Below the pieces are notes generated by a model. The model saw only the letters and a program-made list of their open reading frames with translations, searched no databases and was not told the origin of the DNA. Position numbers and translations under genes: made by a program. A DNA stretch of 41,051 nucleotides from Planctomycetota bacterium (GTDB taxonomy: Bacteria > Planctomycetota > Planctomycetia > JALXBF01), in the NCBI GenBank assembly GCA_026991575.1, contig JALXBF010000138.1:75099-116149 (forward strand), given 5' to 3'. Of the stretch, positions 17,906 to 26,547 are shown one piece after another. The stretch's first letter is position 1. Every line of letters begins with the position of its first letter.

Positions 17906-18934
17906 CTAAGCCGACGCTCTCAGTTGTTCGGCTGCCTGAGGCGCACCGTAGTCGCGTGGGGCCTGTATCGGACGCGGCAACGACGTGGCATCGCGCAGTA
18001 GGGCCTCGTCCAGGAAGGCGTCGCCCCCATCGCGCCGTTTCGCGCGCGCGCATCGACGCACCGCCTCCAGCCACGCCCGCAGCGTCGGCCATTGGCCGAC
18101 GACCAGAGCTGCGGTGAGTCGTAGCGCGGTGCAGGGGACGTAGCGGCACCAGAAGAGACGGCCGCAGGCATTGCGCAGCATGAACAGATGCGCGTTCCTG
18201 ATGGTCAGGTACTGGAGCTGTCCCCGGTGGTACGCTGCCCGGAATGCCTCGCTGCCGCCGTGATGCACTACGGCGCGCGGCTCGAATAGCGTCGGCCAGC
18301 CCCGCGCCCGCGCTGCCAGGCACAACTCCAGATCTTCATACCGACCTGGAAAGTAGGCGTCACGGTAACCGGACAGAGCCAGGAAGCGGTCCCGCCGGAC
18401 GGCGAGCACAACGCCGGAGGAAACCGTTTCCACAGGTGCATGTTGCAACGGTGGCACCGTGTGCTCGGTTCCCACCAGACCCCACCGAGGACGCAACCGC
18501 GAGCAGCAGCCTTCGTATTCACCGGTCGCCGCGGTGCGCACCAGTGGCCCTACGGCGAAGGCGTCCTGGTGACGAGCCAACGTGCTGACCAGGTGGACGA
18601 AAGCCGTCTGCTCCGGCGCGACGTCGTTATTGCACAGGATCAAGACCGGCTGCGGTACAGAACGAGCTACCGACGCAAAAGAGGCAAGCCCTCGGTTCGG
18701 CCCACGCCATAGGCCTACTCGTGGGTAGCGGCGGGCGAGCCAGTCCGCTGCGGCCGATTCAACTGAGTTATCGACAACCGATACGACGGCCTGTCCTGGG
18801 CCGAGTCGGTCGGCAGCACGCACGACAGCGGGCAGGTAGCGATGCAGCAGTCGTGTGCCACCGTAGTTCAGCACGAGCACGTGGCAGTGCTCATTGCCGC
18901 GGTCTGTTCGGCGTAACCATCGGCCTTGTGCCAT
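17906..18934 (-). CDS. GT2-family glycosyltransferase
   Basis: GT-A fold glycosyltransferase of family 2 (rhamnosyltransferase/WcaE-like subgroup), 342 residues, cytoplasmic. Visible elements: HVLVLNYGG at the start of the Rossmann half, VVDNSVES, NRGLASFASVA, the metal-site equivalent LILCNNDVAP (NND 102-104), SSGVVLAVRR, and the acceptor region FPGRYEDLELCLAARARGWP with GGSEAF after it. Many members make linkage-specific transfers onto lipid-linked sugars. The frame runs upstream to 19717 but that part lies antisense-free inside the previous gene and has no GT features; the ATG at 18934 has GAGG five bases upstream and overlaps the previous gene by 67 bases. Last gene of the four-gene operon. 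Donor sugar and acceptor cannot be told from sequence. Confidence 0.88.
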   Translation of the reverse strand: MAQGRWLRRTDRGNEHCHVLVLNYGGTRLLHRYLPAVVRAADRLGPGQAVVSVVDNSVESAAADWLARRYPRVGLWRGPNRGLASFASVARSVPQPVLILCNNDVAPEQTAFVHLVSTLARHQDAFAVGPLVRTAATGEYEGCCSRLRPRWGLVGTEHTVPPLQHAPVETVSSGVVLAVRRDRFLALSGYRDAYFPGRYEDLELCLAARARGWPTLFEPRAVVHHGGSEAFRAAYHRGQLQYLTIRNAHLFMLRNACGRLFWCRYVPCTALRLTAALVVGQWPTLRAWLEAVRRCARAKRRDGGDAFLDEALLRDATSLPRPIQAPRDYGAPQAAEQLRASA

Positions 18935-21426
18935 CGTTGCCTCATCGCTGCGGCTACTGTCAGTGCCGCCAGAATCGCACCGTTTGCCGAAAGGAACATC
19001 GCGTCGTTGAACAGCAGAGCCAGATGGTAGTTCCACGCAGCGGTGCCGTAAATGGCGAAGGCCGACGCGTTCACCAGGAGCCGCACGGAAACCAGCGTAA
19101 AGAGCCCGGCGAACGGTGCTCGTCCCGGGTGGCCGTGTACCACTGCGCCGGCCAGCGCGCCTGCCGTGACAAGCACAACCACGTAGCGGGTCCACACGGC
19201 CACTGCCGCAAGCAGCATCGAGAACTGCTGATCTGCCAGTTCGACCCCGACGGCGCCGCGGTACAGCGTGTTGATGGGCAGGAACGTGTCGCGGCCGTCG
19301 GAAAAGTGAAACAGGTGAACGGCCAGCAGGGCAGCCAGGATCGTCCCGGTAGCTGTGGTCGTGTCGAGCGTGAGGCTGCCGGGGTCTGTGGCACGAATCC
19401 GGCAGCGGGATAGCCACACCAGACTGCCGAAGATAACCCATTGTTGGGGACACGGCAGCGCCAGGAGCGCGGCCGCGTGCAGCGTAGCCAGTGGCAGGCC
19501 CCCGCCAGCCAGTTCGGCCACGCACAGTGGGCCGAGGCCAACCCATGCGATACGAGCGGCCATCGGATCCACGAAGCGTCCGATGCCGGCCAGAGCCATG
19601 ATCGCGATGCCACCGGCGGCAATCACCGCGCGGCGGTCTCGCGCCAGCTGCACCGCGATGGCCGTGCCAACGGCCAGTGCGCCCAGGGCCGTTGCAGCGG
19701 TTACCACCTCCTGCCACGGCGGGGCCAACGGTTCGTAGGAGAGCTTCTGCCCAACGGTTGCAATGGCTGCCAGCGCGGCAAGGGCACCGGCCTGACGGAT
19801 CGACAGCCTACCGGGTGGGAACCGGGAGTGCCATCGAAGCAAGCTCGACCGCACCGACTGGGCAACCAGGCAACCAGCGGCCCAGTAAAGCAGCAGGTCG
19901 TTGCGTGTCCGCAGCGGGGCAGTGGCCGCGGCAACCCCTGTGGCCACTGCGCCGGGGCGTACCGTGCTCGATCGCCTTGGCCATGCTAACGCTGCCGCCA
20001 GGCACACAACAAACAGGCCGGCGGCGCGAAGCGGATGGCTTCGCCAGGTGGCAAAGCGGAAGGTGGGTAGTGCATCTGCAGCAGCGAATCCATCCACACG
20101 TCCCACCGGTGGTAGGATCCGCTCGAGCGCCACCAGCGCAACGCCGGCACTGAGGGCCAGCAGGACGGAGCGCGGCGATGAGAGGCCAACCGTCCGCACA
20201 TGCCAGCAGCTTAGCGCCACGCCGCACAGAAGCCACAGAACCCATCCGACCCGTGCCCAAAGGCGGGCACGCGCTTCAAGATCATGCAGCAGGGCGGCAA
20301 CGTCGTGGCTATTGGCTGGCGGGAGCGTGCGGCGCTGGCCACGAGCTGCGATGCGTGCAAGCGGGGGGCAGCCTGCGCGTCTGAGGCGAGCTACGTAGAC
20401 GGACAGCAGCTCGCGGCCTCGCTCCGCTGCCGTGCCGGCCAACAGTGCCATGCTCGGCTTACCCGCGTATCCGCCTGGCAAGGGGATATCCAGCCACGCG
20501 GCCATCAGGAAGGGCCAGGCAGACTGCGCGATGCGAACGGACGCTGCCGGTGCGATTGGTACAGGGCCAGCCACGGCGAACGGAGCCCAGCACACCTCGG
20601 GGGGACCGTCGCTGGAATGGCCCCCATCGTCGCGCACGCCATGGTCCGATACCAGGACGGTCAGCGTCTGGGGCAAGCAGAGTTGTAGGAGGTGCGCCAG
20701 TTGTTGGTCTACCGCGGCCGCCGCCGCCACGTACTCTCGGCTTCTGGCGCCGTGGCGATGGGCGATGGCATCGAGTGTAGCCAGGTGGACGACGACGACA
20801 CGTGCCTGCGCCGCCGGCCGCTCCAGCAGGGCTGCTGCTGCGGCTACCGCGCGACGATCGTGCTCGGGGATCCGCGCCATGTCATCCAGCACCCAGACGT
20901 AGGCTGGCCTGGTGACGTCGTGGAGCCATGCGTGGCCGGACGCGGGTCCGGCAAACCACTTGGCCCCCGGCAGCGCATCCAGCCAGGTCTCCAGCGCTCG
21001 TGGTTTGGGGGAAAGGTCGTTGTAGACGTCCCAGAGCGTTGCTGGTCTGCCCGCGAAGAAAGCCTTGTAAAAGGAAGCGCTCACTGGGAATGGCCCAGTC
21101 CGGTGCCAACCGGCGCCGCCCCTGCTCGCGACCTCGTTCCAGGTCGGCATAATGCACCGATCACGGGCGATGTCGGCGCGGAGCGCATCGACGATGAAGA
21201 CCACCAGGCGCTGAACCGTACGCCAGTGATCTCGGTGGCGACGTGTGTGCTCGGCAGACGAAGGTGCCGGTGGTGCTGATGCCCGAGGAACAGGATCCGG
21301 TGAGGCAAGCCGCACGAACAGGCTTGCCCCCGCCGCAAGCCAGACCAGGGTAAGCACAGGCACCAGTGCGTCGTGCACCTTCGGCCAGGCAGCTGACTGT
21401 AGCTCGCGGCGGCGTGCCATGCTCAT
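18868..21426 (-). CDS. GPI ethanolamine-phosphate transferase-like (PIG-O type) membrane phosphotransferase
   Basis: 852 residues. One N-terminal helix (about 21-41), an extracytoplasmic alkaline-phosphatase-superfamily domain (about 70-330), then about ten or more membrane helices to the end. This is the architecture of eukaryotic PIG-O/PIG-G/Mcd4. The key sites correspond in order: FIVDALRAD (D80); GPFPVSASFYKAFFAG, equivalent to the Thr-rich nucleophile region of PIG-O, with S116 or S118 as candidate nucleophile; HLATLDAIAHRHG (D219, H223); and VSDHGVRDDGGHSSD (D261, H262, H270). All expected metal ligands are present. The family moves phosphoethanolamine from phosphatidylethanolamine to a glycolipid. 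The ATG at 21426 overlaps the stop of the preceding gene (ATGA), implying coupled translation. True donor and acceptor are unknown; a phosphodiesterase is the main alternative. Confidence 0.8.
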   Translation of the reverse strand: MSMARRRELQSAAWPKVHDALVPVLTLVWLAAGASLFVRLASPDPVPRASAPPAPSSAEHTRRHRDHWRTVQRLVVFIVDALRADIARDRCIMPTWNEVASRGGAGWHRTGPFPVSASFYKAFFAGRPATLWDVYNDLSPKPRALETWLDALPGAKWFAGPASGHAWLHDVTRPAYVWVLDDMARIPEHDRRAVAAAAALLERPAAQARVVVVHLATLDAIAHRHGARSREYVAAAAAVDQQLAHLLQLCLPQTLTVLVSDHGVRDDGGHSSDGPPEVCWAPFAVAGPVPIAPAASVRIAQSAWPFLMAAWLDIPLPGGYAGKPSMALLAGTAAERGRELLSVYVARLRRAGCPPLARIAARGQRRTLPPANSHDVAALLHDLEARARLWARVGWVLWLLCGVALSCWHVRTVGLSSPRSVLLALSAGVALVALERILPPVGRVDGFAAADALPTFRFATWRSHPLRAAGLFVVCLAAALAWPRRSSTVRPGAVATGVAAATAPLRTRNDLLLYWAAGCLVAQSVRSSLLRWHSRFPPGRLSIRQAGALAALAAIATVGQKLSYEPLAPPWQEVVTAATALGALAVGTAIAVQLARDRRAVIAAGGIAIMALAGIGRFVDPMAARIAWVGLGPLCVAELAGGGLPLATLHAAALLALPCPQQWVIFGSLVWLSRCRIRATDPGSLTLDTTTATGTILAALLAVHLFHFSDGRDTFLPINTLYRGAVGVELADQQFSMLLAAVAVWTRYVVVLVTAGALAGAVVHGHPGRAPFAGLFTLVSVRLLVNASAFAIYGTAAWNYHLALLFNDAMFLSANGAILAALTVAAAMRQRWHKADGYAEQTAAMSTATCSC

Positions 21427-22307
21427 GCCGTCTGACCCCCTGGGTCCACCGCCTGGCACTCGCGCTCGACATGCCCACCACGTGCCCAGCGCAACAGCCT
21501 GGCGCCGCGCGTTATCGGGACGGCGATCGCAAGGGCCAGTAGCCAGCACGTACGAACTGTGCCAAACAGCGGTGGGCACAGCAGCCAGACGCCAGCCACG
21601 GCGGCCAACTGAGGCAACAGGTTTGGTACTTCTGTGATCCACAGCAGCCGTCGTGCCATGCGGCCGGCCGGTTCAGACCGTGACGACATCTGCCTCGATC
21701 GACTCCATGACTGTCTGCTGCCGGTCCTGTGGTAGAGAAATGCCTTGGCCACGGCTGCGCCGTGAGCTTCCGCCAGGAGGCCGCCGAGAAAAAGGGCCGT
21801 CGAGCTAGCCATGGCCACCGGGCCGAACAACCGGGCCAGAGCACCGTGCAGCGATTCGGCCAGGGCCCACCAGAGGGCCACGTGGACGACGAAATGCATG
21901 AGAAAATCGAGGTACGCACCAGTCAGAGACGCTTGCCCGGTGACGCGGGCCACCTGGCCGTCCACGTGGTCCAGCCAGTACCACACCCACAGCAGCAGCA
22001 CACCCAATGAGAAGCTCCATCCACTGCCGTTGGCGATGAAGGGCGCTGCGGCCAACCCAACGACGGCGGCGATCAACGTCACAACTGCCGGAGGTACCCC
22101 TAGCCGGCACAGCAGCCAGCTCAGCGGCAGTGCAGCGGGACGAGCGAACCAGCGTGCCAGGGGATAGCCAATCGACGGATCCTGCGGTTTGTAGGCACGC
22201 TGGCGGAACCGACGCCAACGCTGAAGGCCTGGCATCGGGCGGCGCCGCCGACGGGCGAACGTCTTTGTGGATCGCATGCCGTGTGCTGTCGTTCCTGGCG
22301 ACGCCAT
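21423..22307 (-). CDS. CDP-alcohol phosphatidyltransferase family protein with altered signature
   Basis: 294 residues with an Arg-rich cytosolic N-terminus and about six membrane helices. The family joins a CDP-activated lipid or alcohol to an alcohol acceptor. The signature D-x2-DG-x2-AR-x8-G-x3-D-x3-D appears with exact spacing (D113, D116-G117, A120-R121, G130, D134) except that the fourth aspartate, regarded as the catalytic base, is H138. A preceding RPAALPLSWLLCRLGVPPAVVT is the usual amphipathic and first-helix region. The ATG at 22307 is chosen because it begins 9 bases after the flippase stop; ATG 22277 is the alternative. The larger frame to 22838 is antisense-like noise inside the flippase gene. 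Coupled by ATGA overlap to the phosphotransferase gene, so it may make that enzyme's donor or acceptor lipid. Confidence 0.85.
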   Translation of the reverse strand: MASPGTTAHGMRSTKTFARRRRRPMPGLQRWRRFRQRAYKPQDPSIGYPLARWFARPAALPLSWLLCRLGVPPAVVTLIAAVVGLAAAPFIANGSGWSFSLGVLLLWVWYWLDHVDGQVARVTGQASLTGAYLDFLMHFVVHVALWWALAESLHGALARLFGPVAMASSTALFLGGLLAEAHGAAVAKAFLYHRTGSRQSWSRSRQMSSRSEPAGRMARRLLWITEVPNLLPQLAAVAGVWLLCPPLFGTVRTCWLLALAIAVPITRGARLLRWARGGHVERECQAVDPGGQTA

Positions 22308-22315
22308 CTGAGGCA

Positions 22316-23863
22316 CTACTCCCGCTCGGCTGCCTGGGTCGCCATCGAAGAGGCACGCCCTGGGCCGAGCCCGGGCTGCCGGGGCTGGCTGTACCAGACC
22401 CACAACAGCGTCACGCCCGGGGGCATGGACGCAATCGTGGCGCCGGTCACAACGTGCCACCAGCTGAAGCCGGCCAGCCAGCTGAGGGCCGCTAGCACAG
22501 CCGCGGCGTACAGGATCGCCAGCACCAGAGCGGCGAAGCTCGGCAGCAGGCGTCGTCTGGACCAAGTCGTGGCGACGCCTAAGAGCAGGCCGGCAGCCAG
22601 CGAGCTGAGTGCTGCCGCCCACCCGATGGCCGGCAGGGAGCCGGGCAGAAGCCGCAAGGCTGCGAAGGTGCCGGATGCGCCAGCGATCGCAGCGAACGCA
22701 TACGCGGCACACATGCGCCAGGAATGGCCCAGCGTGACCAGTGCGTGGCGCAAGGGCAGCGTTCCCCCAACGATGGTTGCTGCCGCAAGGGCCCCCCAGA
22801 CAGCCTCCAGCCCGACGCGGTATCGGGGCAAGAGCCACGCCGTCAGCGGGACACCGACCACTGCTGCTCCCGCCGCGATCGGAACCAAGAGCATCGTCAG
22901 CAGCGTTGCCCCGCGGAGGCCGAGCTCCAGCACCTGATCCGTGTCATTGGTCTCGGCCAGACGGATGCCCATCCGAGGGAAGAGGACGTTCGAAACCAGG
23001 TTCGCCTGGTCGAAGACGCGGCTGGCAATCAACAGCGACGTGGTGTACAGTCCCAGCAGTACTTCCCCATCCGCTGCGCACAGAATGACCATGGCACGCT
23101 CCGCGGAGCGGACGGCCATCAGGGCCAGTGCTCCGGCCGCCAGCGGCGCCCCCTGGCGCACCAGCCTGGCAGCTGTCTGACGGTGCCAGCGTGGCCAGAG
23201 GCTCAACCGTCGCGCCCGTAGCACAAACGTCAGGTTCGCGATCTCGGCCGCAATCGCGCCTGCCAGCAGTCCCACCAGGCCAAAGGCGACCGCACCGCCG
23301 GCCAGAAGGAACAACTCCAGCACCGCTCCGACGATCCGGGACCAGGCCGGCACGGTGAAGTCGAGCGAGGAACGGAGCGTGGTCAGGGCAAGCGTCAGGG
23401 CACGCCGTACGAACAGAAGCACGGCCGTGGCCACGAAGGCCAGTGCCCAATCTGGGCGACCGCGTAGTTGGCTGACCGCCGCAGCAACCAACAGCAGCAC
23501 ACTGACCACGCTGGCGGCCGCAACCTCAATGGCCATGGTGGTGTGCACGGTACGCTCTGCTCGGGTGCGATCGCCGCCGCCGGTCGCCACCGCAATCTCC
23601 ACCGCAGCGGCACGGGCAGCGCCCAGATCGGCGAAGCCCGCATAGTCCAGCACCAGGCGCACCGCCGACCAGATTCCCACCAACCCGGGGGTCAACGTGT
23701 GGCGTACGACATAGCTGGTAACGACGCCCAGGGCCGTCGCCACGTGGGAACTGGTCAGCACGGTCCAGCAATCCCGCAGAAAGCTGCGCCGAGCCGGGCG
23801 AGCGCTGCTGCTCGGTCCGCTCTCCGGCGCGCGTTGTGACGGCTGCTGCAAAGTGGCACTCAC
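22316..23863 (-). CDS. Wzx-like lipid-linked polysaccharide flippase (MOP superfamily)
   Basis: 515 residues with roughly 12-14 hydrophobic segments and the look of the polysaccharide-exporter branch of the MOP superfamily: N-terminal SFLRDCWTVLTSSHVATALGV, GIWSAVRLVLDYAGFADLG in the first repeat, then VRQGAPLAAGALALMAVRSAERAMVIL and LYTTSLLIASRVFDQANLVSNVLFPRM in the second. These transporters move undecaprenyl-linked glycans across the inner membrane. The GTG at 23863 is the only start near the first helix; Shine-Dalgarno is weak (TAGG). First gene of the operon, read from the promoter at 23907-23935. No Wzy or Wzz gene is in the window, which argues for export of a short unit rather than a polymer. 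Substrate unknown. Confidence 0.82.
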   Translation of the reverse strand: MSATLQQPSQRAPESGPSSSARPARRSFLRDCWTVLTSSHVATALGVVTSYVVRHTLTPGLVGIWSAVRLVLDYAGFADLGAARAAAVEIAVATGGGDRTRAERTVHTTMAIEVAAASVVSVLLLVAAAVSQLRGRPDWALAFVATAVLLFVRRALTLALTTLRSSLDFTVPAWSRIVGAVLELFLLAGGAVAFGLVGLLAGAIAAEIANLTFVLRARRLSLWPRWHRQTAARLVRQGAPLAAGALALMAVRSAERAMVILCAADGEVLLGLYTTSLLIASRVFDQANLVSNVLFPRMGIRLAETNDTDQVLELGLRGATLLTMLLVPIAAGAAVVGVPLTAWLLPRYRVGLEAVWGALAAATIVGGTLPLRHALVTLGHSWRMCAAYAFAAIAGASGTFAALRLLPGSLPAIGWAAALSSLAAGLLLGVATTWSRRRLLPSFAALVLAILYAAAVLAALSWLAGFSWWHVVTGATIASMPPGVTLLWVWYSQPRQPGLGPGRASSMATQAAERE

Positions 23864-24066: not shown

Positions 24067-26547
24067 GTGTCGACCACGCCGGGCCTCGGCCACGGTGGCC
24101 TGGGGAGTTCCACAAGCGAACTGTTCCTGCAAGCATGTAGCGGTCGGCTCCGCGCAGCGGCGACCTTCCTCGGGCCATGGCTGCCGGTGGTGGTGGCCGC
24201 TGCCGTTGCCATGGCGCTACTGTCGCCGGCTCTGTTCTGCGGCTATGTGCTGAGCCCGGCGGATGTGATCCTGGTTGGCGAGGGGTTTATCGGACCGACC
24301 CACGAGCCGGCCAACCGGCTGCTGACCGACGTGGCGTTCGCCTTCGAGCCATGGCTGATCGAGGCCCGGCGTCAGCTCCGCGTCGGGCAATGGCCCTGGC
24401 TCAATCCCTACGCAGGGCTCGGTGCCCCCCTATTCGGAAACCTCCAGTCTGCTCTGCTGTGCCCGTTCAACTGGCCGTTCCTGCTGACCGGCAGCCCGCG
24501 AGCGTTCGCGTGGCAAGCGCTTGCGAAGCTGCTCTGCGCCGCCGCGGGGGTCGTGCTCCTGAGCCGACATCTAGCGTTGGGTCGCTCGGCCCAGACGCTA
24601 GCCGCCGTCTGCTACATGCTGGGCGGCTTCATGAGCTGTTGGCTGCTCTACCCGCTTGCCTCGTCGGCTGCCTGGTTCCCGTGGCTGTGCTGGTCCCTAC
24701 TTGGACTGGTACGACGGCCCAGCACCCGTCAAGTGGCAATCGTCGCTGTAACGGTGGCGCTGGCGTGGCTCGGGGGACACCCTGAGACTGTCATGCACAG
24801 CGTCCTCGGCGCAGCCCTGTTTGCGGTCATGGCGTTCCGGCCCCTGCGGCCGCGCACCGCGACGATCGCCGCTGTGAGTGCCGTGTTGCTGGGCACTGCT
24901 GTCGCCGCCGTCCAACTGGTGCCGTTCTTCAGTTACTTGAGCGTGAGCAATGTCTGGGAGCGTGGCTCGGCCACGGGTCGAACGCAGCCTGCCAGACGGC
25001 TGATGATCAGCGCAGCCTCAACGGTCTGTATGCTCGTGCCGTTTGCCTACGGGAGCTACGGCAGGAGAGACGCTCACGTCGAAAAGGCACTGGGATTGGA
25101 GAACTTCAACGAAATCGCTTCCGGCTACTGTGGCGTCCTCATTCCGGCGTTAGCCCTTCTTGCCGTGCTCGGTCGCAACCGGGCGCCACGCTGGGTGCGG
25201 GCGGCCGGCATGCTGGCGGTGCTTGGTTGGTTGGTGGGGTACCGATGGTTTCCCTTTTACGATGCGTTGCATCTTGTGCCTGGTGTTGCGCACGTGCAAC
25301 ACCAACGTCTGCTTCTGTGGCCGACGCTCTTCGCCCCACTGGTGGCTGCGTATGGTCTGCATCAACTTTCGACGGTGACGACTTACCACCGCCCGATCAG
25401 GGTCGTGACGCTGGCCTATGCGGTGCTTTGCACGACGCTAGCTCTCGGCGCTGTGGCGGTCGTCGCTGCCGGGCCGAGGCTCTACGCACATGCCCGTGAG
25501 CATTACGAGAACCTTGTCCGGCAGGGACTGCTGGACAGGCACACCGCACGGCTGAGGCTTGAGCAGCAGGGGAGGCGAGCCCCGCGGGCGCTTGCTGCTC
25601 ACTACCTGCATGCGTCCGCCCTGATGGCACTGGCCGTGAACGTGCTGTGGGCGAGCAGCGCTGCGGCGTCTACGGACGGCAAGAAGCGTTGGGTTCGGAA
25701 ACTAGGCCTGGGACCGTTGTGGCTGCTAGTGGTCATCGACCTGGCCAGCTTCAGTCTGAAGCAGTGGCCGTTCATACGCCCCGGTCAGTGGTTCCCGCCT
25801 CCGGCAGCTTCGCTTTCGGATGCCAGCCCCTTGGACCGCACGCTGTTCCTCCAGGACGTGATGCCCCCGAATGCAGCGACAGTTTACGGTGTCAGTGATC
25901 CGCGACTGTATGACGGCATGGAACATGCTGGGCTGGATCGGCTGTTTCGCTGCCTTGATCCGGCATCGGCCGGTACGGCCGACGTGCGCGGCCAGCAGCT
26001 GCTGCGGCGGCACGACTGGCGGCACAAGCTGCTGGCGGTCCTGGGCGTGAAGTGGATCGTGGCGCGCAGCCCGGCGGAGACGGCACCTTGTCTGAGGCGG
26101 GCTGGCTCGTTTGGCCGGGCCACGGTCTGGCAACTTGCCTGCCAACGTGATACCGGGCTATGGCTGCTGCCCCCCGCAAAGCGCGAGCCGCAGACCGAGC
26201 TTGACTGGCCAGAACTCGTACAACAGCTACGGCCACTGGACGTGGCGGAGCTGCACTGGGTGTCGGCCAACAAGCTTGTGGCCCACTTGGCCCCACAGGC
26301 CGGCGGTATTCCTGAGGGGACCGTTGTTCTGGGCATGTTGTGGCTTCCGGGCTGGCAGGCGCGGGCCGGCGGTGTAGCCGCGGAGTTGAGACCCGTGGCC
26401 GGTACCCTGATCGGCGTAGAAGTTACTCCGGGCACGCAGCAGCTTGAGCTCTCGTATCGGCCTCCCGGTCTGGGCCTGGCAGCAGCCGTGACGCTACTGG
26501 GCTTGGCCGCCTCGTGCGCGCTGTTTCGTTACGATAGGCAACTCTGA
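24067..26547 (+). CDS. YfhO-like multi-pass membrane protein (GT-C-type)
   Basis: 826 residues with about 12-13 membrane helices and a large C-terminal extracytoplasmic part. The N-terminal loop has the features of the YfhO / GT-C group: LLTDVAFAFEPWLIEARRQLRVGQWPWLNPYAGLGAPLFGNLQSALLCPFNWPF is summarised here as an acidic residue (LLTD) before a WPWLNPYxGxGxP block. Further on come GGFMSCWLLYP, SSAAWFPW and LAWLGGHPETVMH. The C-terminal region (PRLYDGMEHAG, VKWIVARSPAE, LWLLPPA) is the beta-rich domain seen in YfhO proteins. Firmicute YfhO adds sugars to lipoteichoic acid using a polyprenyl-phosphate sugar made by a GT2 partner. Divergent from the flippase operon, which contains a GT2. The GTG at 24067 lacks a good Shine-Dalgarno; later starts would cut the first helix. 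Confidence 0.75.
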   Translation: MSTTPGLGHGGLGSSTSELFLQACSGRLRAAATFLGPWLPVVVAAAVAMALLSPALFCGYVLSPADVILVGEGFIGPTHEPANRLLTDVAFAFEPWLIEARRQLRVGQWPWLNPYAGLGAPLFGNLQSALLCPFNWPFLLTGSPRAFAWQALAKLLCAAAGVVLLSRHLALGRSAQTLAAVCYMLGGFMSCWLLYPLASSAAWFPWLCWSLLGLVRRPSTRQVAIVAVTVALAWLGGHPETVMHSVLGAALFAVMAFRPLRPRTATIAAVSAVLLGTAVAAVQLVPFFSYLSVSNVWERGSATGRTQPARRLMISAASTVCMLVPFAYGSYGRRDAHVEKALGLENFNEIASGYCGVLIPALALLAVLGRNRAPRWVRAAGMLAVLGWLVGYRWFPFYDALHLVPGVAHVQHQRLLLWPTLFAPLVAAYGLHQLSTVTTYHRPIRVVTLAYAVLCTTLALGAVAVVAAGPRLYAHAREHYENLVRQGLLDRHTARLRLEQQGRRAPRALAAHYLHASALMALAVNVLWASSAAASTDGKKRWVRKLGLGPLWLLVVIDLASFSLKQWPFIRPGQWFPPPAASLSDASPLDRTLFLQDVMPPNAATVYGVSDPRLYDGMEHAGLDRLFRCLDPASAGTADVRGQQLLRRHDWRHKLLAVLGVKWIVARSPAETAPCLRRAGSFGRATVWQLACQRDTGLWLLPPAKREPQTELDWPELVQQLRPLDVAELHWVSANKLVAHLAPQAGGIPEGTVVLGMLWLPGWQARAGGVAAELRPVAGTLIGVEVTPGTQQLELSYRPPGLGLAAAVTLLGLAASCALFRYDRQL

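Follow-up and report, generated by a model that had tools for sequence, protein, structure and literature searches.

An AP-superfamily domain fused to a polytopic membrane region

The window analyzed here is a stretch of 41,051 nucleotides from the genome of a Planctomycetota bacterium (assembly GCA_026991575.1, contig JALXBF010000138.1), and the gene in question, on its minus strand, encodes a protein of 852 amino acids (aa) that joins a catalytic domain of the alkaline phosphatase (AP) superfamily to a membrane-spanning C-terminal half. A preliminary description had seen in this protein a near-complete active-site pattern of the eukaryotic glycosylphosphatidylinositol (GPI) ethanolamine-phosphate transferases, with serine in place of a threonine nucleophile, and had asked whether the two share ancestry. 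The protein is an ordinary AP-superfamily member, and the eukaryotic angle is unproven. The gene and the features within it are these:

18868..21426, minus strand: polytopic membrane protein with an AP-superfamily (PF01663) catalytic domain, 852 aa (open reading frame, Pfam, residue check, alignments)
20527..21249, minus strand: catalytic core (residues 60-300) with a fold like that of the nucleotide pyrophosphatases (NPPs), predicted local distance difference test score (pLDDT) 70-89 in its best parts (AlphaFold model, structure search)
21079..21087, minus strand: codons of residues 114-116 (P-V-S), with S116 in the nucleophile column (residue check, alignment)
18871..20316, minus strand: C-terminal polytopic membrane region with 9 hydrophobic segments (hydropathy, Pfam search)

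The open reading frame (ORF; 852 codons) has no internal stop, and its start and stop fall where the preliminary description placed them. Codon-position G+C (0.728/0.566/0.725) is near that of the neighboring genes and similar in both halves of the frame, so the ORF is coding throughout. The gene is present once in the source genome (191 contigs, 4.96 Mb in total). The window also encodes genes of the DUF1559, DUF1570 and 3-keto-disaccharide hydrolase families, which are associated with planctomycetes and fit a source in that phylum. Pfam matched residues 182-265 to PF01663 (type I phosphodiesterase; E 7.5e-9) and placed no other family above its cut-off; with a score of 36.1 bits, where the cut-off is 23, the match is not due to chance. 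PF00884, the sulfatase-type family of EptA and LtaS, gave no match to the protein at E<=1; its 25-bit cut-off was passed by five of the ten relatives scanned. Hydropathy yields ten hydrophobic segments, one N-terminal and nine C-terminal, which bears out the multi-helix C-terminus reported earlier, and that C-terminal region matches no Pfam family at E<=10.

Active-site residues

All six proposed metal ligands, D80, D219, H223, D261, H262 and H270, lie at exactly the positions first given to them, as do S116 and S118. Conservation was counted in 33 bacterial alignment rows, the window protein included: D219, H223, D261 and H262 are present in 33/33, soluble proteins among them, H270 in 28 (three rows have Gly and two a gap) and D80 in all 27 filled rows (six gaps). 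Because the same residue set occurs in a solved NPP and in soluble bacterial PF01663 proteins, the D, S/T, D..H, DH, H metal-ligand pattern is, as judged from these alignments, superfamily-wide and not specific to GPI transferases, and the proposal that it marks those enzymes does not hold.

The PVSAS block had been put forward as the nucleophile site, and half of that suggestion survives. In the catalytic-domain profile alignment S116 occupies the nucleophile column, where the Xanthomonas NPP (Xac NPP) has Thr and the solved ENPP6 has Ser, so that S116 could plausibly be the working nucleophile in place of Thr; S118 was rejected as a candidate, its column being Pro in 22 of the 30 filled rows and Ser in only 3. 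The nucleophile column itself reads Ser in 13 bacterial rows and Thr in 17, with 3 unaligned. Parsimony on the tree described below counts five S/T changes over 34 rows (15 S, 19 T), a set that includes two stretches from the PDB and two eukaryotic sequences, human PIG-O and the catalytic segment of PIG-N, which come from no database and are provisional, so that results with them are leads. Given 13 Ser in 30 filled rows, the Ser of ENPP6 and these five changes, serine is an ordinary alternative at this position, and we set aside the idea that it is unusual. PIG-N/Mcd4 presumably also has Ser here, in agreement with the provisional PIG-N sequence, though not on the authority of a database record. 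The matches among PDB entries also included the T79S mutant of the alkaline phosphatase PafA.

Comparison with solved structures

Structure comparison places the catalytic core best on nucleotide pyrophosphatases (7mw8_C: Z 19.9, root-mean-square deviation 3.3, 225 residues aligned), with a model whose mean pLDDT is only 45.8 overall and 70-89 in the best core blocks; the model of a relative from the f80 family, described below, has a mean of 58.7. The periplasmic domains of YejM/PbgA were also among the structural matches. No GPI transferase structure stood among the Foldseek or VIA-align matches listed, which is not evidence of absence. At the level of sequence, phmmer with the single protein against PDB sequences matched ENPP6 only (E 0.2), while the family profile (A3) gave E values of 7.6e-18 for the Xanthomonas NPP and 1.6e-13 for ENPP7; the best 60 of 94 such matches include no GPI transferase, again not evidence of absence. 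A viral library gave one catalytic-domain match at E<=0.001, and viral contigs scanned with the single protein gave no relative.

The NPP/ENPP proteins (Xanthomonas NPP, 2gsn/7mw8; ENPP1-7; PF01663) thus have the same catalytic fold and active-site positions as the 852-aa protein, ENPP6 sharing its nucleophile as well, but they differ from it in two respects. The third metal His of Xac NPP lies in a separate segment some 95-100 residues past DHG, whereas H270 follows H262 by eight residues, the long NPP-type insertion between DHG and this His not being present; soluble bacterial hydrolases in the alignment share the compact spacing. In addition, the NPP chains listed are without the polytopic half.

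Bacterial relatives

Searched with the single protein, 2 of 397 genomes of the class gave credible matches, the window's own and G098. A match in G353 was dismissed as chance, since it covered only window residues 385-496, contained two internal stops and lay in a locus whose long ORFs are unrelated by reading. The G098 protein (L026:8358-10334, minus strand) is 31% identical to the window protein over 223 residues and likewise has a Ser nucleophile and a polytopic C-terminus, but is shorter (659 aa against 852). A profile built from these two proteins found 11/397 class genomes at E<=1e-8, only the same two above 50 bits, and 21/392 genomes of the phylum at E<=1e-9, of which 12 belong to a single family-level group, f80.

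A profile of the f80 proteins found the gene in 12/12 f80 genomes and in 0/5 genomes of f36, a family of the same class, which suggests that the membrane-fused gene has a core function in the f80 lineage. These proteins (e.g., L048 and L055) have about 900 residues, a total of 12-17 hydrophobic segments per protein by hydropathy, and motifs of the form PTLTAPCVR..LLTG, DHAGH and DHGVS.MGTHGGGE, and share the architecture of the 852-aa protein; their nucleophile is mostly Thr (11/12 rows, Ser in 1/12) where the window protein has S116. With 29% identity over 285 residues between the catalytic domain of L034 (the L055 gene) and that of the window protein (E 1e-16), the two sets of catalytic domains are clearly homologous. 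A stand-alone catalytic domain in a frame of 279 residues, with a Ser nucleophile, a compact third His and no membrane half, was seen in a cyanobacterial metagenome-assembled genome (Leptolyngbyaceae; L056:3182-4018). In G550, tandem f80-type copies (L027:7578-10055 and L027:10101-13598), the shorter with Ser and the longer with Thr at the nucleophile, offer a natural paired comparison.

The membrane halves gave a different result. Against the f80 profile the C-terminal half of the window protein scores -24.5 bits, and shuffled sequences reach -4.5. A C-terminal f80 motif, FHAMGFEESFSTLDVGQAF, had by eye resembled both the window protein and the provisional PIG-O sequence, and was dropped when its profile scores proved to be at the level of shuffles. 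The test used 500 shuffles of each kind for motif 1, motif 2 and the whole C-terminal stretch; some score was obtained by 389, 487 and 500 shuffles, respectively, of the window protein and by 302, 420 and 458 of PIG-O. The score of the real sequence was reached by 253, 255 and 226 shuffles for the window protein and by 10, 237 and 105 for PIG-O, where the figure of 10 for motif 1 comes from a match elsewhere in PIG-O and not from the motif position. Pfam and NCBIfam name nothing in the membrane-fused proteins beyond the catalytic core, and among the papers listed in literature searches that covered the AP superfamily, GPI transferases and origins as well as Planctomycetes and CDP-alcohol phosphotransferases we saw no report of such a family.

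Kinship with eukaryotic GPI transferases

PIG-N/Mcd4, PIG-O/Gpi13 and PIG-G/Gpi7 have the same order of parts as the 852-aa protein (N-terminal helix, catalytic domain, polytopic C-terminus), a likeness that is not specific, and, going by the provisional eukaryotic sequences, the same compact DHG..G.H motif; their membrane halves have no detectable similarity to that of the window protein, and there is no close grouping. The collections searched yielded no eukaryotic GPI transferase, and the comparisons that follow therefore use the provisional sequences and are leads. The profile of f80 proteins alone gave 83.8 bits to the N-terminal part of PIG-O, 60.8 to PIG-N, 66.3 to Xac NPP and 87.2 to the best other bacterial membrane-fused protein, and the window protein scored 72.2 whole and 93.3 over its first 370 residues. 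With the window and G098 profile the corresponding scores are 58.9 for Xac NPP, 58.7 for PIG-N and 52.5 for PIG-O.

The tree was built from 34 of 37 aligned rows, omitting L065, L066 and L067, in which the nucleophile region is unaligned; also omitted were L043, the f80 protein of G507, which is truncated at its N-terminus, and matches that were second ones or duplicates. In the tree PIG-O stands beside f80 (support 89/73), and the window protein joins the G098 protein (90/81) and then the NPPs, with support of 80/86. No star marks any of these branches, and PIG-N is placed apart from PIG-O. Six groupings were compared by approximately unbiased (AU) tests and none was rejected, p lying between 0.163 and 0.361; for a single clade of window protein, G098 protein, f80 and PIG-O, p-AU was 0.242. 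The C-terminal half of PIG-O falls within the range of shuffles against the f80 profile. Neither PF19316 nor PF04987 matches the membrane region of the window protein at E<=10, and PF19316 has no match in G000; but the provisional human PIG-O sequence itself reaches only 19.4 against the PF19316 cut-off of 27. We saw no evidence of a GPI pathway here, other genes of that pathway (PIG-A, the PIG-F partner) not having been searched for.

Of the suggested common ancestry, then, the GPI-like architecture stands, but an NPP scores as well as PIG-N and PIG-O do and no grouping is rejected. On these sequences a eukaryotic link of the window protein is possible and not specific to it, and the f80 family appears the better candidate for kinship with PIG-O.

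Gene neighborhood

Three genes on the same strand adjoin or lie near the 852-aa gene:

17906..18880, minus strand: family 2 glycosyltransferase (GT2), which overlaps the 3' end of the 852-aa gene even if its latest possible start is used (ORF, Pfam)
21423..22277, minus strand: CDP-alcohol phosphotransferase, whose stop overlaps the start of the 852-aa gene (ATGA, 21423-21426) (ORF, Pfam, NCBIfam)
22316..23863, minus strand: polysaccharide flippase-like protein (PF13440), upstream (Pfam)

The best NCBIfam matches of the CDP-alcohol phosphotransferase are archaetidylinositol-phosphate synthase (1.1e-11) and phosphatidylinositol-phosphate synthase (4.1e-10), both far below cut-off. Its motif, DHVDGQVAR..GAYLDFLMH, has His in place of the fourth Asp of the usual motif. 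The same His, in a GxYxDYxMHH-like context, occurs in 15 of 16 homologous phosphotransferases read from 15 loci (L086-L100), and homologues of the phosphotransferase were found in 41/198 class genomes (E<=1e-10), all but two of these 41 belonging to family f2. A flippase homologue lies near the phosphotransferase in 6/15 of these loci and a GT2 homologue in one, L100 of G109, where all three occur together among further ORFs whose translations read as glycosyltransferase-like and polysaccharide-type; L100 looks like an envelope-polysaccharide region. The window neighbors were not found beside other transferase-like proteins in 24 loci (E<=1e-4), those of G098 and f80 included. Elsewhere in the source genome a phosphatidylserine decarboxylase gene (PF02666, 139.3 bits) adjoins a second CDP-alcohol phosphotransferase, so phosphatidylethanolamine is probably available as a donor.

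Divergent from the flippase operon lies a gene for a large YfhO-like membrane protein (24067-26547; a weak match, below cut-off), which may belong to the same pathway.

Discussion

The residues, the class of the core fold, the gene overlaps and the phosphatidylserine decarboxylase gene are directly established. Building on them, we suggest that the 852-aa protein is catalytically active, a metalloenzyme of the AP superfamily anchored in the membrane, with an NPP-type periplasmic core that transfers a phospho-alcohol to a glycan or glycolipid of the cell envelope, a reading to which we give an about even chance of being right. The catalytic core would face the periplasm, where S116 would attack a phosphodiester, most likely in phosphatidylethanolamine as donor, with the help of two metal ions bound by D80, D219, H223, D261, H262 and H270; a phospho-serine-type intermediate would form, and the phospho-alcohol would then pass to an acceptor. 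That acceptor would most likely be a glycan or glycolipid made by the CDP-alcohol phosphotransferase and GT2 of the same operon, which the product of the adjacent flippase gene would bring across the membrane. Since the gene overlaps those for the CDP-alcohol phosphotransferase and GT2 and lies downstream of the flippase gene, its most likely role is to transfer or edit a phospho-headgroup, the target being a glycan or glycolipid of the envelope. Several points weigh against this proposal. Transfer rather than hydrolysis is something we infer; the structure model is weak (mean pLDDT 45.8) and poor outside the core; D137 stands in a column that is Asn in 25/30 filled bacterial rows, and in 12/12 of the f80 rows, so that the chemistry may be altered; and in G109 no homologue of the 852-aa gene lies between the flippase, phosphotransferase and GT2 homologues, so the module can do without this gene.

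Hydrolases of the NPP/ENPP type provide the nearest solved folds, and among the bacterial homologues are PF01663 proteins that look soluble and secreted and carry these residues too, as would be expected if the protein were a membrane-bound periplasmic phosphodiesterase that removes headgroups from phospholipids or envelope glycans. We consider this rather unlikely, if a serious contender, given an operon of overlapping genes that looks biosynthetic and a polytopic half of more than 450 residues that would be superfluous in a simple hydrolase. The YejM/PbgA domains among the structural matches might instead point to a regulator or lipid sensor that has lost its catalytic activity, which seems very improbable in a protein that retains all metal ligands and a Ser/Thr nucleophile; PbgA/YejM is not known to have a full active site. 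Descent in common with the eukaryotic GPI ethanolamine-phosphate transferases, extending over the catalytic and membrane domains of PIG-O, would account for the shared domain order and compact third His, for the pairing of the similarly built f80 family with the provisional PIG-O sequence, and for the AU test, which did not reject one clade of them all. It strikes us as improbable, since the window protein itself falls with G098 and, weakly, with the NPPs, its C-terminal half carries no signal to the f80 profile, that of PIG-O stays within shuffles, and the compact His is common to soluble hydrolases.

A bolder version of that descent, and a slightly more doubtful one, would make the membrane-fused f80 proteins the bacterial sister of PIG-O and the window protein a serine offshoot acting on an inositol- or alditol-phosphate glycolipid of its own operon. 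Part of the GPI pathway would then have a parallel in bacteria, or would have come from there. If bacteria do have membrane-fused relatives of GPI transferases, the origin of one step of eukaryotic GPI synthesis becomes testable by phylogenetics and biochemistry. If they do not, these proteins are still uncharacterized envelope enzymes of the Planctomycetota, tied here to a His-variant CDP-alcohol phosphotransferase.

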